In this document: positions 3,226 to 20,284 of the stretch, piece by piece | Numbering within the stretch: the first letter of the stretch is position 1 | Layout of the letters: every line of letters starts with the position of its first letter | IMG/VR virus record: IMGVR_UViG_3300009495_000099 | Coordinates: 1-21,161 of that record | Source of the DNA: a virus | Reading direction: 5' to 3' (one strand) | Length of the DNA: 21,161 nucleotides | Program-made: the position numbers and the translations under genes | Notes under the pieces: generated by a model | Databases searched by the model: none | Seen by the model: the letters and a program-made list of their open reading frames with translations, nothing else | Told to the model about the DNA's origin: nothing

Positions 3226-3954
3226 ATGGGATTAGAAACAGCTACTTACATTAGTGATTTTAATGTCAATAACCCTACGCAAAACGACCCCGTAGGTGAA
3301 GGCGATAATCATATCAAAATGATTAAATCTGCTTTAAAAACTACTTTTTCAGGCATAACGGGTGAGGTTACTGGAACACACACCGCTATAAACAGTGCGG
3401 TTGCGGCGGCTAACGCGGCAACAAACGCAAACACCGCAAGCACAATAGTTAAAAGAGACGCATCAGGTAACTTTACCGCAGGCACAATCACAGCGGCTCT
3501 GACGGGTGACGTAACGGGCGCTGTGACTGGTGACGTAACTGGCAATGTAACGGGTGACTTAACAGGCGCTGTAACTGGCGATGTAACTGGCGATGTAACT
3601 GGTAACGTAACGGGTAATGTAACGGGTAATGTTAGCGGTTCCTCTGGTAGTTGCACGGGAAATGCGGCATCTGCAACTACTGCGGCGGCTTGTTCAGGAA
3701 ATGCGGCATCCGCAACTACTGCGGCGGCTTGTTCTGGTAATGCGGCAACCGCGACCACTGCGGCGGCTTGTACAGGAAATGCGGCATCTGCATCTACTGC
3801 GGCGGCTTGTACAGGAAATGCGGCAACCGCAACTACTGCGGCGGCTTGTTCTGGCAATGCGGCATCTGCAACCACTGCGGGTGATGTGGACGGGTTTAGC
3901 ATTTCAACATCCTCCTCTGGCAATAACGCTAACACTATTTATTTTAGGACTTGA
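3226..3954 (+). CDS. Tail fibre/appendage-like protein with two tandem-repeat regions
   Basis: This 242-residue protein starts two bases after the preceding stop, behind GAGGAAG. Residues 1-45 (ETATYISDFNVNNPTQNDP, then GEGDNHIKMIKSALKTTF) match the N-terminal module that many phage tail fibres and appendages use to attach to the particle. Residues 93-136 are eleven four-residue TG(D/N/A)(V/L) units, and residues 143-220 are six 13-residue units beginning with Cys. It ends DGFSISTSSSGNNANTIYFRT, apparently without a receptor-binding head or chaperone domain. TGNVTGNV arrays are familiar from marine phage tail fibres, where they probably form a trimeric shaft. The protein is short for a fibre, so it may be an adaptor or a shaft whose tip is supplied by the next gene. 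No trace of a frameshift was noticed. Confidence 0.75.
   Translation: MGLETATYISDFNVNNPTQNDPVGEGDNHIKMIKSALKTTFSGITGEVTGTHTAINSAVAAANAATNANTASTIVKRDASGNFTAGTITAALTGDVTGAVTGDVTGNVTGDLTGAVTGDVTGDVTGNVTGNVTGNVSGSSGSCTGNAASATTAAACSGNAASATTAAACSGNAATATTAAACTGNAASASTAAACTGNAATATTAAACSGNAASATTAGDVDGFSISTSSSGNNANTIYFRT
3502..3633 (+). repeat. Coding tandem repeat, 12-base unit x 11
   Basis: Eleven consecutive 12-base units encode TG(D/N/A)(V/L), residues 93-136 of the tail protein. Copies differ mostly at wobble positions and at the third residue. The uniform length and in-frame period suggest growth by slippage under selection for a repeating shaft. Confidence 0.9.
3652..3885 (+). repeat. Coding tandem repeat, 39-base unit x 6
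   Basis: Six consecutive 39-base units encode (Cys)(Ser/Thr)GNAA(Ser/Thr)A(Ser/Thr)TAAA, residues 143-220. The Cys falls at residues 143, 156, 169, 182, 195 and 208, exactly 13 apart. The last unit diverges at its end (TTAGD). Near-identity at the DNA level implies recent expansion or ongoing gene conversion. Confidence 0.9.
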
Positions 3955-10471: not shown

Positions 10472-10879
10472 ATGATGGAATTTTTTGCTAAAATGGCTAT
10501 GGACAAGGCGGCTGATGAGGTTCTTGGAACTGTAACTAGAGAAGATAGAAATCGTGAGGCTATGTTCAACAGGACTAACCAATATTCGGCTAACGCGCCA
10601 TTGCCTCAAATCCAAAACTCTGCTGATTTAATGGCAGGAACGAACAGTATGGCAGGCGTTAATAATGACGCGGCGGCAAACCTCACAAGCACAATGCCTG
10701 CTCTCCAGTTGGGCGGTGCGCTTTCAACACCTCAAATGTCAAGCGGTTCTGGCGTGTTATCAGACCCCAGCGAAGTAGAAACCGAAGAGCAGAGAAAACT
10801 TCGTGAAAGCTATGAAAATGTACCACCTGTAGCGGGTACTGCCTCACCACAAGGGTCGCCTTTGTTACGGTACTCGTAA
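10472..10879 (+). CDS. Small Pro/Ser/Asn-rich phage protein of unknown function
   Basis: This 135-residue protein starts one base after the preceding stop. A second ATG follows immediately at 10475 and could also serve. Residues 1-30 form an amphipathic helix (MEFFAKMAMDKAADEVLG). Most of the rest looks disordered: Asn, Ala, Ser, Pro and Gly with repeated 'M.GTNSMAGVNND' and 'STPQMSSGSGVLSDPSEVE' pieces, then EEQRKLRESYENVPPV. No catalytic or membrane motif is present. The last base of its stop is the A of the next ATG. Its position between a large ejection protein and the ART-domain protein suggests co-packaging, perhaps as a scaffold or adaptor. I do not recognise a family. Confidence 0.6.
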   Translation: MMEFFAKMAMDKAADEVLGTVTREDRNREAMFNRTNQYSANAPLPQIQNSADLMAGTNSMAGVNNDAAANLTSTMPALQLGGALSTPQMSSGSGVLSDPSEVETEEQRKLRESYENVPPVAGTASPQGSPLLRYS

Positions 10880-13044
10880 TGGGAATGCTTAATGTCGTAA
10901 AACAAAGTATAGAAAAGGGTCGTGAAAAGATAAAAGCCTACCACGCTTCACCGCATGACTTTGATAGGTTTTCTTCTGAACACATTGGTCAGGGTGAGGG
11001 CGCACAGGTTTATGGTCGCGGGTTATATTTTGGAGGCGCAGAAGAAACGGCTAAATTTTACAAAAAAAGCACTAACTTCATAGACAAGAAAAGACAGTTC
11101 CAAAGAGAATTACCTGATGATGCTTCCATAGATGAAGTATTGGAGATGAATGCAGAGGGTGCTTTTTCTCCTGAAATGACAGAACTTATAAATGCTTTAG
11201 AAGCAGATGATTTTTTAGGCTACGACTACCCCTCACAAGCAATAAGTGCAACATTCAGTAAAAACATTAGCGACTACGACCCTTCCCCACGCCTGTTAAA
11301 AGCCCGTGACAACGGGACAATGTACGAGGTAGATATTGATGCTTCGCCAGATGAGTTGCTCGATTGGGATGCACCTGTAAAACATCAAAGTGAGCATGTT
11401 AAGAAATCCTTAAATGAAAGCGGTTTGCTTGAGAAAATGCGGAACTTTGGGGCATTTAACGAGGGCGATATTGACAGCGGGTTAATGACTGGCAGACATA
11501 TTTTACCTAGTGGGCGCAATCCAGATACAAGCGATTTAAAAGAAGCAGGAATAAAAGGGATTCAGTATGACGATGGTATGAGTCGAGGCACAAAAGCAGG
11601 CAATACTAAAAACTACGTTATATTTGATGACAAACTAATCTCAATCGCTAAGAAATACGGCGTTACCCTGCCTGTAGCATCTGCCATTCTTGCAGGCACT
11701 ATGACACCAGAAGAGGCTCAAGCAGGCGCTCTAACCTCTGGATTGCGGAGAGTTATTGATGAAAGATATTCAAACCCTGTTGGGTCGTCAAACCCCCGAA
11801 AAGGCGTATTGGGTAAATCTGAAGAAGCCCCTGTTGGTATTGAAGAGCGTTCGCTTGATAGGGGTAACGATTTAAAGTTAGAAGAATTACAGGGACACCC
11901 TTACATACTGACGCAGTCGGATAGGTCTGCGGCAGGCGGTGTTGTACGTTCGGTACATGATAAAGAAATTGATGGTGTAAACCTTAGAGGTGGCAGGGAT
12001 TTTATGTTTGATCCTGAGTCGCAAGGACAGGTTTGGGCATCTTTTCCACAGGTCGTAAAAGGCATACATAAAAGAGCGTCCGATCTAAGTGCGGAGCATG
12101 GCAAACCAACATTACTGTTACCATATGCGATGGCTCCAACGGGGATTGATTTCTCTAATATGCCCGTAGATGTGATGATAAATTATGCGCGTCAGGGAAT
12201 GAGTAAATCAAATATAAAAAAATTAGACACGCAGATTCGTAAAATTATCCCTGAGTGGGGAGGCGTGGCTAACCCATCTTCTAACGAAATTTTAAGAAAC
12301 GTGACAGGCGACAAAAGGAAAGGAGTCGCCGATATCGTTGATAAAAATTTCAGAGATGTGCGAGGTGGAATGTCTATGGGTGAGGCTAGGGCGGCAACAT
12401 CGGCAAGCGACCAATACCTTATACCAGATGGTAGTTTAAAAAATGTTGGACTAATAGATTCAAACAAAAGCGTTTTAGCTGACTCAGGTCATCCTACATA
12501 TCTTGGTGGTTTGCAGGGTGAGGGGGTGGGTACTTTAACGGATTCTATAAACGCAAGAGCCTTTATGGAAGCAAATGGCAGAGTCTTAGCTAACAACCCA
12601 TCAGATATAAGATCACTTAGTATGAACCCCTCTTTTGGGCAAGGTGTTATTGATGATCGCCTTTTGGATTTTATAGATAAGCATAAAAAGACATTAGCTG
12701 TAGTAGGTGGGACTACAGCGGCAACCGCAAAAGCTGAAAGTGCTGATCGTAAAAACATGACACGCAGAGAGCGAAGAGCCAACCCGCCCAGTGAGGTTTT
12801 GCGGAACTACACTGCAGGGCAAGCAGGAAAAGCTGTTGGTGAGATGGGGCTAGGTGTCGTGCAAGGTTTAGGCGAAGGCTTAGACTTTTTTAACTCTGCA
12901 AATATACAGCGCAGTGTTATGGGTCTGCCACAACTAACACCCGCACAAGACGCGCTCTCACCTATAACCGACATCCGATTGCTAGAAGATGGCGAAGGCA
13001 GAGACAACGCCCGAACCATTGGTTCTTTGTTTAGCCCAATTTAA
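10879..13044 (+). CDS. Polyvalent virion protein with N-terminal ADP-ribosyltransferase (ART-PolyVal) domain
   Basis: The product has 721 residues. Residues 20-64 (AYHASPHDFDRFSSEHIGQG, then EGAQVYGRGLYFG, ETAKFYK) match the start of the ART-PolyVal family. The Tyr-His (21-22), Gly-Glu-Gly-Ala-Gln (39-43), Gly-Leu-Tyr-Phe (48-51) and Tyr61 are those expected of an H-Y-type NAD-binding fold. The domain continues through MYEVDIDASPDELLDWDAP (148-166) and ends with GIKGIQYDDGMSR and NTKNYVIFDDKLISI (225-256). A helical part with GVTLPVASAILAGTMTPEEA follows. A second conserved-looking module spans about 333-540 (LQGHPYILTQSDRSAAGG, LRGGRDFMFDPESQGQVWAS), whose role I cannot name. The C-terminus has a hydrophobic segment at 603-619 and NMTRRERRANP. 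As the last gene of the ejection-type run it may enter the cell with the DNA and modify host proteins, like T4 Alt; that is inference. Confidence 0.8.
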   Translation: MGMLNVVKQSIEKGREKIKAYHASPHDFDRFSSEHIGQGEGAQVYGRGLYFGGAEETAKFYKKSTNFIDKKRQFQRELPDDASIDEVLEMNAEGAFSPEMTELINALEADDFLGYDYPSQAISATFSKNISDYDPSPRLLKARDNGTMYEVDIDASPDELLDWDAPVKHQSEHVKKSLNESGLLEKMRNFGAFNEGDIDSGLMTGRHILPSGRNPDTSDLKEAGIKGIQYDDGMSRGTKAGNTKNYVIFDDKLISIAKKYGVTLPVASAILAGTMTPEEAQAGALTSGLRRVIDERYSNPVGSSNPRKGVLGKSEEAPVGIEERSLDRGNDLKLEELQGHPYILTQSDRSAAGGVVRSVHDKEIDGVNLRGGRDFMFDPESQGQVWASFPQVVKGIHKRASDLSAEHGKPTLLLPYAMAPTGIDFSNMPVDVMINYARQGMSKSNIKKLDTQIRKIIPEWGGVANPSSNEILRNVTGDKRKGVADIVDKNFRDVRGGMSMGEARAATSASDQYLIPDGSLKNVGLIDSNKSVLADSGHPTYLGGLQGEGVGTLTDSINARAFMEANGRVLANNPSDIRSLSMNPSFGQGVIDDRLLDFIDKHKKTLAVVGGTTAATAKAESADRKNMTRRERRANPPSEVLRNYTAGQAGKAVGEMGLGVVQGLGEGLDFFNSANIQRSVMGLPQLTPAQDALSPITDIRLLEDGEGRDNARTIGSLFSPI

Positions 13045-16388: not shown

Positions 16389-16520
16389 TAGCATCCGTTG
16401 CTAATTACTAATATATATATAAATTTATTTGCAAACCACTATTCAAATTTGAATATACGTTAGTTGCGATATAAATTACGCTATATAAAAATAAAAGTCA
16501 ACTTTTAATTGATATATCAA
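16389..16520 (-). promoter_or_regulatory. Regulator control region with three palindromes and a possible promoter
   Basis: The 145-base gap upstream of the XRE gene is very AT-rich. It contains TAGCA-N5-TGCTA (16389-16403), the perfect 14-base palindrome ATTCAAATTTGAAT (16441-16454), and the perfect 12-base palindrome TTGATATATCAA (16509-16520) at the helicase stop. A minus-strand TTGACT at 16502-16497 may be a -35; its best -10 at 17 bases, TAATTT, is poor. TTTGCA about 70 bases later, with TATTAG at 16 bases, is an alternative. TAAAAG-TTGA-CTTTTA (16507-16492) followed by T-rich sequence could act as a weak terminator for the helicase. Confidence 0.5.
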
Positions 16521-17851
16521 CTTTGTACTACTTTTAGAAGTTTTGTTTGTGTGTCGTCTTTCTCTGTTAATGACTTCATTACGTTCTCATCGGCACTGTC
16601 TTTTGCCACGATATGTACTATACGCACAGGCTTTGTCTGCCCCTGCCTGTGAAGCCTAGCGTTAAACTGTTGGTATAGTTCCAGACTCCACGGGAGTCCA
16701 TACCATACGATAATGTTACCGCCCCTTTGTAGATTCAACCCGTGACCCGCAGATGCAGGATGGGTCAGTAATACAGGTATATCACCGCTATTCCAACGAT
16801 CAATAGTTTTAGGATCGTTAGATAAAACCTCTGAGGTTTTGAGGGCTTTCTGTATGACTGCTAAATCACTTTTAAAGTTATAGGCTACCAGTACAGGCTC
16901 TTGGGCTTGCTCTATGATTTGCACCAGTTCGTTTAATTTCTCTTGGTGCAACTCAACAAAATCTTTATCCTCGGTGTAGGCGTTACCATTGCATATCTGC
17001 AACAGCTTGCCCACCTGTACAGCCGCATTGACAGCTAATATCTCTCCCTTATCGTATGACAGGAGGAAGTCTCGCTTCATCTCCTCATAGGCTTTACGGG
17101 CATTGGCAGGCAGTTCCACTTCAATTGTTAAATCAATTCGCTCTGGTAGTTCCAAGTAGTCCTCTGCGCTCATTCTTAGAACGACATCTTTTACTTTCTT
17201 GTACAGTGCATCCGTTCTTTCTGGTCGGACTAGCCATTGATTCCATTGTGGGTTGCCTACTGTCATACAGTATTTCTCTAAAAACTTACCACGGGTGTTT
17301 TCTAGTCGCTCGCCCTTATCCAATAAATACATCTGCGACCATAAATCTATGAGAGAGTTAGGTGCGGGTGTCCCTGTTAACTGCACCATGCGTTTAATCT
17401 TACCCAGTACCTTTCTAAACGACTTCCAACGCTTGCTTGAGTGTGATTTAAAGCTACTGCTCTCATCTATTATCACGCAGTCGTAATGCCACTTCTGACC
17501 TAATAACTCTACAAGCCACGGAATCATCTCCCTGTTAATGATGTGCAGTTGTGTGTCTTCATACACTGCGGTTTTGCGCTTTGCGGGGGTGAGTCCTGCC
17601 AATATGGTGTATTGCAGATTGATATGCTCCCAGTTGCGTATCTCCTCAGCCCATGTGTGTTTAGCCACTCGTAGCGGGGCAACTATAAGTGTGCGTTTAA
17701 TCTTTTTGTCTTTGATTAAATCGCTTAAAGCTGTGAGGGTGGATATGGTTTTACCCAGACCCATATCAATCCACAATGCGGCTTTCTTGTTGGCTTTAAC
17801 AAACTTAACCGCCTTATGTTGATACTCATGCATCTTGCTTCTATCTAGCAC
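16517..17851 (-). CDS. SNF2-like DNA helicase/ATPase
   Basis: The product has 444 residues from GTG 17851, which has a GAAGGGAAG site upstream; ATG 17833 (residue 7) is the alternative. The superfamily 2 motifs are complete: Walker A DMGLGKT (29-35), I-a LIVAPLRVAKHTW, Walker B IIDES (127-131, DES instead of DEAH), motif III QLTGTPAP (157-164), motif V ASAGHGLNLQ (366-375) and motif VI ARLHRQGQTKPV (398-409). This is the short phage branch of SNF2 proteins, without extra chromatin-related domains, usually next to VRR-NUC and family A polymerase in replication modules. It probably remodels or unwinds DNA during phage replication. Its start overlaps the VRR-NUC stop region by 7 bases. The gene ends at the palindrome before the XRE gene. 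Confidence 0.9.
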   Translation of the reverse strand: MLDRSKMHEYQHKAVKFVKANKKAALWIDMGLGKTISTLTALSDLIKDKKIKRTLIVAPLRVAKHTWAEEIRNWEHINLQYTILAGLTPAKRKTAVYEDTQLHIINREMIPWLVELLGQKWHYDCVIIDESSSFKSHSSKRWKSFRKVLGKIKRMVQLTGTPAPNSLIDLWSQMYLLDKGERLENTRGKFLEKYCMTVGNPQWNQWLVRPERTDALYKKVKDVVLRMSAEDYLELPERIDLTIEVELPANARKAYEEMKRDFLLSYDKGEILAVNAAVQVGKLLQICNGNAYTEDKDFVELHQEKLNELVQIIEQAQEPVLVAYNFKSDLAVIQKALKTSEVLSNDPKTIDRWNSGDIPVLLTHPASAGHGLNLQRGGNIIVWYGLPWSLELYQQFNARLHRQGQTKPVRIVHIVAKDSADENVMKSLTEKDDTQTKLLKVVQS

Positions 17852-18108
17852 AGTAGTTTCTTCCCTTCTTCGATGTCGTCAATGATGTGTACTGTCCAAC
17901 CCACTGCGGCTAACCGCCTGTGTATCGCCTCTTGGTAGGGCGTTGGCTTTTTCTTAGGGGCTTTGAACTCAACGATGATTAGTTCACCATCTCTAAAATA
18001 CATTCGGTCAGGTACGCCTCGCTGTGAAGGCGATACCCACTTGTAAGAAAGCCACCCCTGCGCTTTTGCGTAGTCGCTGACTTTCTTTTCAACGTATGAC
18101 TCTCTTAT
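17845..18108 (-). CDS. VRR-NUC family nuclease, non-canonical start (ATA) or frameshift product
   Basis: An open frame of 87 codons lies between polymerase and helicase. It begins IRESYVEKKVSDYAKAQGWL and continues with KWVSPSQRGVPDRMYFRDGE, IIVEFKAPKKKPTPYQ and AVGWTVHIIDD. The Pro-Asp of GVPDR, Glu-Phe-Lys of VEFKA and the downstream Gln are the active site of the VRR-NUC branch of PD-(D/E)XK nucleases, and the length matches small phage members. There is no ATG, GTG or TTG ahead of the conserved part; an upstream TGA bounds the frame. ATA at 18108-18106 overlaps the polymerase TAA as ATAA, with GAGAGG 8 bases before it. The frame is -1 to the polymerase, and the AAAA run just before the stop would allow slippage. 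One G-to-A change would turn a normal ATGA overlap into this ATAA. Confidence 0.8.
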   Translation of the reverse strand: MRESYVEKKVSDYAKAQGWLSYKWVSPSQRGVPDRMYFRDGELIIVEFKAPKKKPTPYQEAIHRRLAAVGWTVHIIDDIEEGKKLLC

Positions 18109-20003
18109 TTTCGATACCTCTCAGACTCGTAACCTTCTGCTTCGACAGGGATGCCCTCTGCCCACACGGGGAGTTGGCACATAATCTCTTCAAAGTCTTT
18201 GAGGCTACCGACACCTTTCGGCACATCAGCCACAATTTCATCGTGTACATGGAGAACGACTGGGTATTTAGACTGCTCTAGCCGCAGTACCGCCTCAGCT
18301 AATAAGTCTCTAGCGACTGCCTGTGTGATAGATTGAACCAGTGAGCCGCCATAGGCTTTGATCTCACCCCATCTATGTATGTGGTTGTTCATACCGCTGT
18401 ATACTAAGTCCATGCCTCTATCGCCCTGAACTAGTTTGGCTTCTGGGAATGATAGGATTCTGCCACTAGGTAGCTTGAATAGTAGGTCGCCTTTGACCCA
18501 CTTAAATTCACCCTTTGCGGCTTTGTACACTTTCCCTTTGTAGCTAACAGCGTTTCGGGCGGCTCGCTCTGTCGATACCCACAGTTTTACAATAGGGTCA
18601 TTGGCTTCACGCCAATCATTGCGAATCTTTAGCGCCTGTTGCTCATCAACATCTGCGCCATACACCTCAGCCATCTTCTGGAATGCTCTAATCCCGCCTT
18701 GATACCCAAGTGCTAGTGTTGCTACCTTGCCCACAAAGCGTTGGTCTTTGTCCACTTCTCCGTAAGGTATTCTGTACATCGTTGCGGCTGTAAATTTATA
18801 AATGTCTTTGCCGTTCGCAAACACTTTAAGTACAGAGTCATGGTCAGCTATCCACGCTAAGGCACGAGCCTCGATGCTTGAGTAGTCAGCACACATCAAT
18901 CTATGCTCTTCTGAGGCTATGAGCATTCCTCGCAGACAGCTAGACATCGCCTCCATAGGTTCTATATCTATCTTCTCTGGGTCTTTGGCTTTCATCTGCT
19001 CGATAACAGAATCGACATCATCAATAGATGGGCGTGGTAGGTTTTGAGGTTGGAAGTGACGACCAGACCATCTCCCTGTAGCCGCCCCGTGGTACATTAA
19101 AATGCCATGCGCTCTGCCATCCTTACCGAGTACGGCTTTCATTGCGTCATACTTTTTGGTACTCGACTTAGATAGTGCCTGCCTTATTTCAAGAAATTTC
19201 TTGACGTTATCAGGGCAGTTATCATCAGATATCGCCGCTTCTACTGCCTGTTTGTCGTAACCTGTCATGCTGTAAGCCTGTGAGGTTATCCACGCTAACG
19301 ACTTAGCACGACTTGCGGTGTTATCTAAAACACCCCCTGTTATCTCATACACTTCCTTGTTTAAGGTTTTGCTGTGCTTGTCTATGATCTCAAGCGCGTT
19401 GTATATGCTGTCCCTATCTAAACGCACACCGCGCCAGTTGATAAGCTGATCGGTTTCCCAAACGTCATTCTCTAAACCTCTGAGGTCACGCAACATTTTG
19501 CGTATCTCTCGCTCTGCAACAACGTCCTGTAGACAGTAGTCGTAGAGTTCTTGATAAAGTTGTGGGTCACGAACACGCTCGCCACGATAAGGCTTACAGC
19601 AACGCTGTATAAGTATCTTGCCTCGTTTGCTTTTAGCGGCATCACCTTCAAGACCTAGCGCCTCGCCACACTTTCCAAGTGCGCGGGGGTACGCTTGTGC
19701 GGCGGCTAGTGCGGCAGTGTCTCGCCACTGATTAATAGGTACAGGCTTCCACTTGAGTACAAGATTCCAAATACCCATCTCGAAAAAACTATTCCATGCC
19801 CACACTGTCGCACCGCCTGCTTCTATTAATGTGAAAAGGCGGTGGGGTAGTGGGTCGTTTGGTGTCCACAATTCTGGTGGTTCATCATCCACAGACCATG
19901 CAAGGCATAGCACTTCGGTTGTGGGGTGGTCAGCGTATGCGTATGCGCCTGATTTGCGTATATCGCATTCACTATATGTTTCAAAATCAATTGATATATT
20001 CAT
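18105..20003 (-). CDS. Family A DNA polymerase with 3'-5' exonuclease domain
   Basis: The ATG at 20003 is chosen over TTG 20024: it has a GAAGAGA site and an ATGA overlap with the preceding gene. The product has 632 residues, short because it lacks the 5'-3' exonuclease of E. coli Pol I. The exonuclease domain opens with ISIDFETYSE (Asp6, Glu8), has WNSFFEMGIWN as the probable second motif and YCLQDVVAEREI (Asp160 region) as the third. The polymerase domain has TGRWS (309-313), motif A CADYSSIEARALAW (Asp373), motif B QRFVGKVATLALGYQGG (Arg422, Lys426, Tyr434) and motif C VLHVHDE (587-589). All catalytic residues are present. This is the main phage replicase of the leftward operon. Its stop codon TAA lies in CGAAAATAAG, shared with the VRR-NUC frame. 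Confidence 0.95.
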   Translation of the reverse strand: MNISIDFETYSECDIRKSGAYAYADHPTTEVLCLAWSVDDEPPELWTPNDPLPHRLFTLIEAGGATVWAWNSFFEMGIWNLVLKWKPVPINQWRDTAALAAAQAYPRALGKCGEALGLEGDAAKSKRGKILIQRCCKPYRGERVRDPQLYQELYDYCLQDVVAEREIRKMLRDLRGLENDVWETDQLINWRGVRLDRDSIYNALEIIDKHSKTLNKEVYEITGGVLDNTASRAKSLAWITSQAYSMTGYDKQAVEAAISDDNCPDNVKKFLEIRQALSKSSTKKYDAMKAVLGKDGRAHGILMYHGAATGRWSGRHFQPQNLPRPSIDDVDSVIEQMKAKDPEKIDIEPMEAMSSCLRGMLIASEEHRLMCADYSSIEARALAWIADHDSVLKVFANGKDIYKFTAATMYRIPYGEVDKDQRFVGKVATLALGYQGGIRAFQKMAEVYGADVDEQQALKIRNDWREANDPIVKLWVSTERAARNAVSYKGKVYKAAKGEFKWVKGDLLFKLPSGRILSFPEAKLVQGDRGMDLVYSGMNNHIHRWGEIKAYGGSLVQSITQAVARDLLAEAVLRLEQSKYPVVLHVHDEIVADVPKGVGSLKDFEEIMCQLPVWAEGIPVEAEGYESERYRK

Positions 20004-20284
20004 ACTAATGATCTCTTCAGCCAATCCGTGCTGAGTTTATTTTTGCCATCAGCAATGTTTGATCTACTTTTTGCTCTTCTTTCTCTTGTTCTTGGCAGTA
20101 AATCTTTATCAGTTATGTGGACTTCATCAAAATAGGTTGCTCTTCTTTTTTTCATACCCATGCGGTTTTGCAGTGTTTTGTATGGGATGTCAGCTAGTTC
20201 TGCTATCTCTTTGACTATGACTACTTGCCCACTCAATTCTTCAAAGCGTTCACCTACATACTTGTAACTGAGTGTTGCTTTCAT
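20000..20284 (-). CDS. Small basic protein with HTH-like segment, unknown function
   Basis: The 94-residue protein starts at ATG 20284, behind AAGGATAAAAA, immediately after an intrinsic terminator. Residues about 20-45 (VVIVKEIAELADIPYKTLQN, then RMGMKKRR) look like a helix-turn-helix of the 'IAE.A.IPYKTL.NRM' type, and the rest is basic (DLLPRTRERRAKSRSN and WLKRSLV). The stop overlaps the polymerase ATG as ATGA, so it is coupled to polymerase translation. It may bind DNA, perhaps as a replication initiator accessory or regulator of the operon; no family is recognised with confidence. Confidence 0.65.
   Translation of the reverse strand: MKATLSYKYVGERFEELSGQVVIVKEIAELADIPYKTLQNRMGMKKRRATYFDEVHITDKDLLPRTRERRAKSRSNIADGKNKLSTDWLKRSLV

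Follow-up and report, generated by a model that had tools for sequence, protein, structure and literature searches.

A VRR-NUC nuclease gene with a conserved, predicted AUA start at the overlap with a phage DNA polymerase gene

Organization of the polymerase-nuclease locus

The window analysed here is a 21,161-nucleotide stretch of viral DNA (positions 1 to 21,161 of IMG/VR record IMGVR_UViG_3300009495_000099). A polymerase, a nuclease and a helicase gene follow one another in this order on its minus strand, with the following features:

18105..20024, minus strand: family A DNA polymerase gene, the upstream partner (open reading frame; PF00476, E 2.6e-24; PHROG 17, E 4.6e-116)
18121..18123, minus strand: in-frame TGA, the upstream bound of the nuclease frame (translation)
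18117..18122, minus strand: Shine-Dalgarno-like (SD) GAGAGG within the polymerase codons for Glu-Arg, 8 nt before the ATA (sequence, AGG codon identity, duplex energies)
18105..18108, minus strand: ATAA overlap, made of ATA (18108-18106) and the polymerase stop TAA (18107-18105), shared with eight other contigs
17845..18108, minus strand: predicted VRR-NUC nuclease of 87 residues, putative ATA start, TAG stop (translation, PHROG 93, PDB 4qbo profile, Foldseek)
16517..17851, minus strand: SNF2-type helicase with a GTG start overlapping the 3' end of the nuclease gene (PF00176, E 9.2e-25; PHROG 62, E 7.3e-156)

The polymerase ends in ...ESERYRK, followed directly by the TAA. Minus-strand translation of 18123-17845 reads stop, EVSKIRESYVEKK...KLLC, stop. 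An earlier note on this DNA had described a nuclease frame bounded upstream by TGA and devoid of ATG, GTG and TTG before its catalytic residues, and the translation confirms this description. None of these codons precedes the catalytic residues in 18108-17845, and the only codons between the in-frame TGA and the conserved Arg-Glu are GAG GTA TCG AAA ATA. The gene is missing from the list of open reading frames, which holds frames of at least 60 aa with ATG, GTG or TTG starts.

Other positions for the start were considered and rejected. The first in-frame ATG is codon 36, past the conserved GxPD aspartate, and a protein begun there would lack both the catalytic Asp and helix 1. A start further upstream is blocked by stop codons, 15 nt before the ATA in the window and 6 nt before it in contig L025. 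The frame of L025 reads TAA AAA ATA; with an in-frame stop a single codon ahead of it, ATA is the sole near-cognate start available in that contig.

Two other genes of the window were also observed. The plus-strand gene at 10879-13044 encodes a 721-residue protein with a weak match to PHROG 873 (endolysin) over residues 138-262; its N-terminus (AYHASPHDFDRF...GRGLYFG) presumably resembles ADP-ribosyltransferase-like polyvalent proteins. The plus-strand gene at 3226-3954 encodes a highly repetitive protein with VTGDVTGNVTG... and GNAASATTAAACS repeats. A long open antisense frame (3309-3935) lies within the latter gene and is probably a by-product of the repeats.

Identity and predicted fold of the nuclease

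In a 14-sequence alignment of the nuclease, residues G31, P33, D34, E47, K49 and Q59 are invariant and make up the catalytic motif GxPD ... ExK ... Q. The protein matches the PHROG 93 endonuclease family (E 1.5e-23) and, by profile, the solved nuclease PDB 4qbo (E 1.1e-16). A Foldseek search with the AlphaFold2 model returned 4qbo (E 3.6e-7) and 4qbn (E 3.1e-5) as nearest structures with a probability of 1.00, which corresponds to the VRR-NUC fold. A search with Pfam PF08774 (VRR_NUC) left the window protein unmatched and gave weak matches in 8 of the 14 aligned relatives (best E 4e-4). We attribute this miss to the sensitivity of the model, because the PHROG 93 and PDB profile matches are strong; a PF08774 match is a detection aid and no defining trait of VRR-NUC proteins. 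Catalytic residues, 4qbo profile and Foldseek hits agree with the VRR-NUC identity first proposed in the earlier note, and the window protein is, on sequence and model, a VRR-NUC nuclease with predicted nuclease activity.

The AlphaFold2 model has a pLDDT of 94 and is confident from residue 1 throughout, with the first helix at residues 3-16. This predicted fold suggests that nothing is missing upstream and that the protein would be complete from the ATA codon. Both the enzyme and the geometry of the overlap are ordinary, and the start codon alone stands out.

The junction in related phages

A total of 2.9 million viral contigs were scanned for relatives of the junction. ATAA was found at the polymerase-nuclease junction of eight other IMG/VR contigs, ranging from near-identical to about 75% nuclease DNA identity. 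This recurrence and the window sequence both support the earlier proposal of an ATA start at an ATAA overlap behind GAGAGG. A sequencing error at 18106 is effectively excluded, because the same ATAA stands in these eight contigs, which have distinct IMG/VR identifiers and some of which share only that lowest level of identity.

Whether the junction reads ATGA elsewhere, as the earlier note had asked, was checked across the relatives. In close relatives this position is taken by ATGA or GTGA, which indicates that separate initiation of the nuclease is the family norm there; a few have TAATG. In other relatives additional sequence lies between the two genes and the nuclease begins with ATG or TTG, and in many the nuclease lies hundreds of bases off as a gene of its own. 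L028, L033, L046 and L060, for example, have hundreds of bases between polymerase and nuclease and a TTG nuclease start. A separate lineage of five contigs has a GTAA junction, that is, GTA in the start position. In these contigs (L147:1501-1761, also L148-L151) the nuclease would begin either with this GTA or with a GTG at least 57 nt upstream, within the polymerase gene. A broader search by pattern, combining ATAA or GTAA with this nuclease N-terminus, gave no additional polymerase-nuclease pairs. The genome scan for a host gave no ATAA prophage; the nearest match, L190 (73%), comes from a proteobacterial metagenome bin and has an ATGA junction.

Selection and history of the ATA codon

Between divergent members, nuclease dN is 0.02-0.14, while dS runs from about 0.5 up to saturation; this indicates strong purifying selection maintaining the protein. 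A tree was built, without the start codon, from 55 distinct polymerase-plus-nuclease sequences. It requires at least two changes involving ATA and one involving GTA, and places the ATA rows L031, L032 and L034 as sister to an ATGA clade (support 96/91). A single ATA origin is disfavoured: constraining all ATA rows together was marginally rejected (p-AU 0.032), for a group that was named after the junctions had been seen. The history possibly consists of one gain and one reversion, or of two gains. Judged from these sequences, the putative ATA start is old, common to several lineages and recurring.

Conservation of the Shine-Dalgarno-like sequence

The Arg codon AGG within the SD, which encodes a six-fold degenerate residue, does not vary among the six divergent ATA lineages, and neither does the Lys codon AAA that provides the A of ATA. 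Among all conserved columns of these lineages, the codon is identical in 3 of 25 for Arg and 1 of 17 for Lys. Mean SD pairing energies are -7.0 (ATAA), -4.5 (GTGA) and -2.7 kcal/mol (ATGA), values that would depend on the anti-SD of the host. The duplex energy is -7.2 to -7.9 in seven of the eight ATAA rows, the remaining row being weak (-4.0). The order ATAA > GTGA > ATGA apparently runs in the direction expected if a stronger SD compensates for a weaker start. The compensation test left at most three independent contrasts once kinship was counted and did not reach significance (median p 0.5 to 1); with so few contrasts, compensation was dropped as a statistical claim.

Proposed translation of the nuclease

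Overlapping stop and start codons and an SD within the upstream gene are both present, as in termination-reinitiation. The canonical start codon (ATG, GTG or TTG) of coupled pairs is absent, and this lineage has ATA instead. The conserved frame, the overlap and the counterparts with ATGA or GTGA in relatives are directly observed. The best explanation is that this is most probably a real, expressed VRR-NUC nuclease translated from AUA through coupled termination-reinitiation. Ribosomes would finish the polymerase at UAA, stay at the site through pairing of GAGAGG with 16S rRNA, and move back one base onto the overlapping AUA. A fraction of them would then restart with fMet-tRNA, more rarely than at ordinary AUGA or GUGA overlaps. 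Nuclease output would be expected to be low relative to the polymerase.

A version of this scheme in which both routes operate, AUA initiation providing most of the nuclease and rare slippage a trace of fusion protein without function, appears unlikely. The sequence leaves slippage on A-AAA possible, but a feature selected for slippage was looked for and not found.

We consider it still harder to credit that slippage supplies most or all of the nuclease, with tRNA-Lys moving by -1 on A-AAA, bypassing UAA and yielding a minor fusion (...YRK-IRESYVEKK...). In every ATAA member an A does precede the AAA codon, which follows CGA, AGA or AAA, and in the GTAA lineage the two codons are CGA AAG; a slip on a single codon is therefore sterically feasible. 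However, A-AAA also occurs in the ATGA relatives L036, L044, L048 and L082, which marks the motif as background. The X XXY YYZ heptamer is absent from the window, where T CGA AAA would permit only a single-codon A-AAA slip. An SD that stimulates -1 frameshifting usually lies roughly 10 nt from the slip site, whereas the distance here is 5 nt. The first bases of the downstream stem lie some 22 nt inside the nuclease frame, outside the 5-9 nt spacing of a stimulator, and is not conserved. Among the 173 loci holding both genes none has an in-frame fusion, and every relative examined encodes the nuclease as a protein of its own. The occurrence of A-AAA in ATGA relatives and the lack of fusions leave the polymerase-nuclease fusion put forward in the earlier note without specific support.

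A strong RNA hairpin was observed in the 5' portion of the nuclease coding sequence (18087-18045, minus strand; AAGAAAGUC...GGCUUUCUU). It is also strong in L024, L025, L032 and L034, with z of about -3 to -4 against synonymous shuffles in several members. RNAalifold found no consensus structure for the region, L031 lacks the hairpin and some ATG or GTG relatives possess it; a conserved stimulatory hairpin was rejected on these grounds. The hairpin is probably incidental.

Least credible of all is a gene in the course of being lost after a recent G-to-A change, silent in the polymerase stop but crippling for the nuclease: ATA is indeed one base from the ATG of relatives and the change is synonymous for the stop, but ATA is common to lineages with saturated dS, the nuclease remains under purifying selection, its catalytic residues are all intact, and a one-base reversion to ATG was always open. 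The G-to-A relation to ATGA and GTGA suggested earlier agrees with the junctions of relatives; its recency does not hold, given the saturated dS and a tree that calls for two or more changes.

Coupled restart at AUA may also have a regulatory side, and the weak start could act as a throttle. It is conceivable, though we hold this only tentatively, that phages repeatedly evolve near-dead AUA or GUA starts at the polymerase-nuclease overlap and so hold nuclease levels low compared with the polymerase. If true, the bases common to stop and start would encode a translational dosage control that gene callers do not see. Gene finders restricted to ATG, GTG and TTG overlook a conserved replication nuclease of this group of environmental phages. 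The natural series of ATG, GTG, ATA and GTA at one junction of related phages offers a gauge of how start codon and SD affect the output of a coupled gene.

Comparison with known systems

In fold and catalytic motif the predicted protein resembles the phage VRR-NUC nucleases of PDB 4qbo and 4qbn, and the order polymerase-nuclease-helicase is also found in Pseudoalteromonas phage AL. A literature search, with most subscription journals outside its scope, found reports of AUA starts to be sparse and returned no such phage arrangement; earlier reports are possible.

Natural AUA starts with a strong, extended SD are described for infC and ccpN of S. aureus, where AUA reporters with a strong SD gave about 10-30% of AUG output (PMC13009471, in excerpt). 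The phage nuclease shares with them a conserved AUA start, an upstream SD and an expected lower output. Unlike these bacterial genes, for which the excerpt of PMC13009471 describes no stop-codon overlap, the nuclease start overlaps the polymerase stop.

ATGA and TGATG overlaps are the ones named for termination-reinitiation coupling in the abstract of PMC6728339. As in the ATGA and GTGA coupling covered there, the present junction has a 4-nt overlap, an SD within the upstream gene and two replication genes in one operon. It differs in its shared bases, here ATAA, with AUA as the predicted start and UAA as the stop. The conserved and recurrent putative AUA start at this phage stop/start overlap is thus a new twist on known coupled translation.
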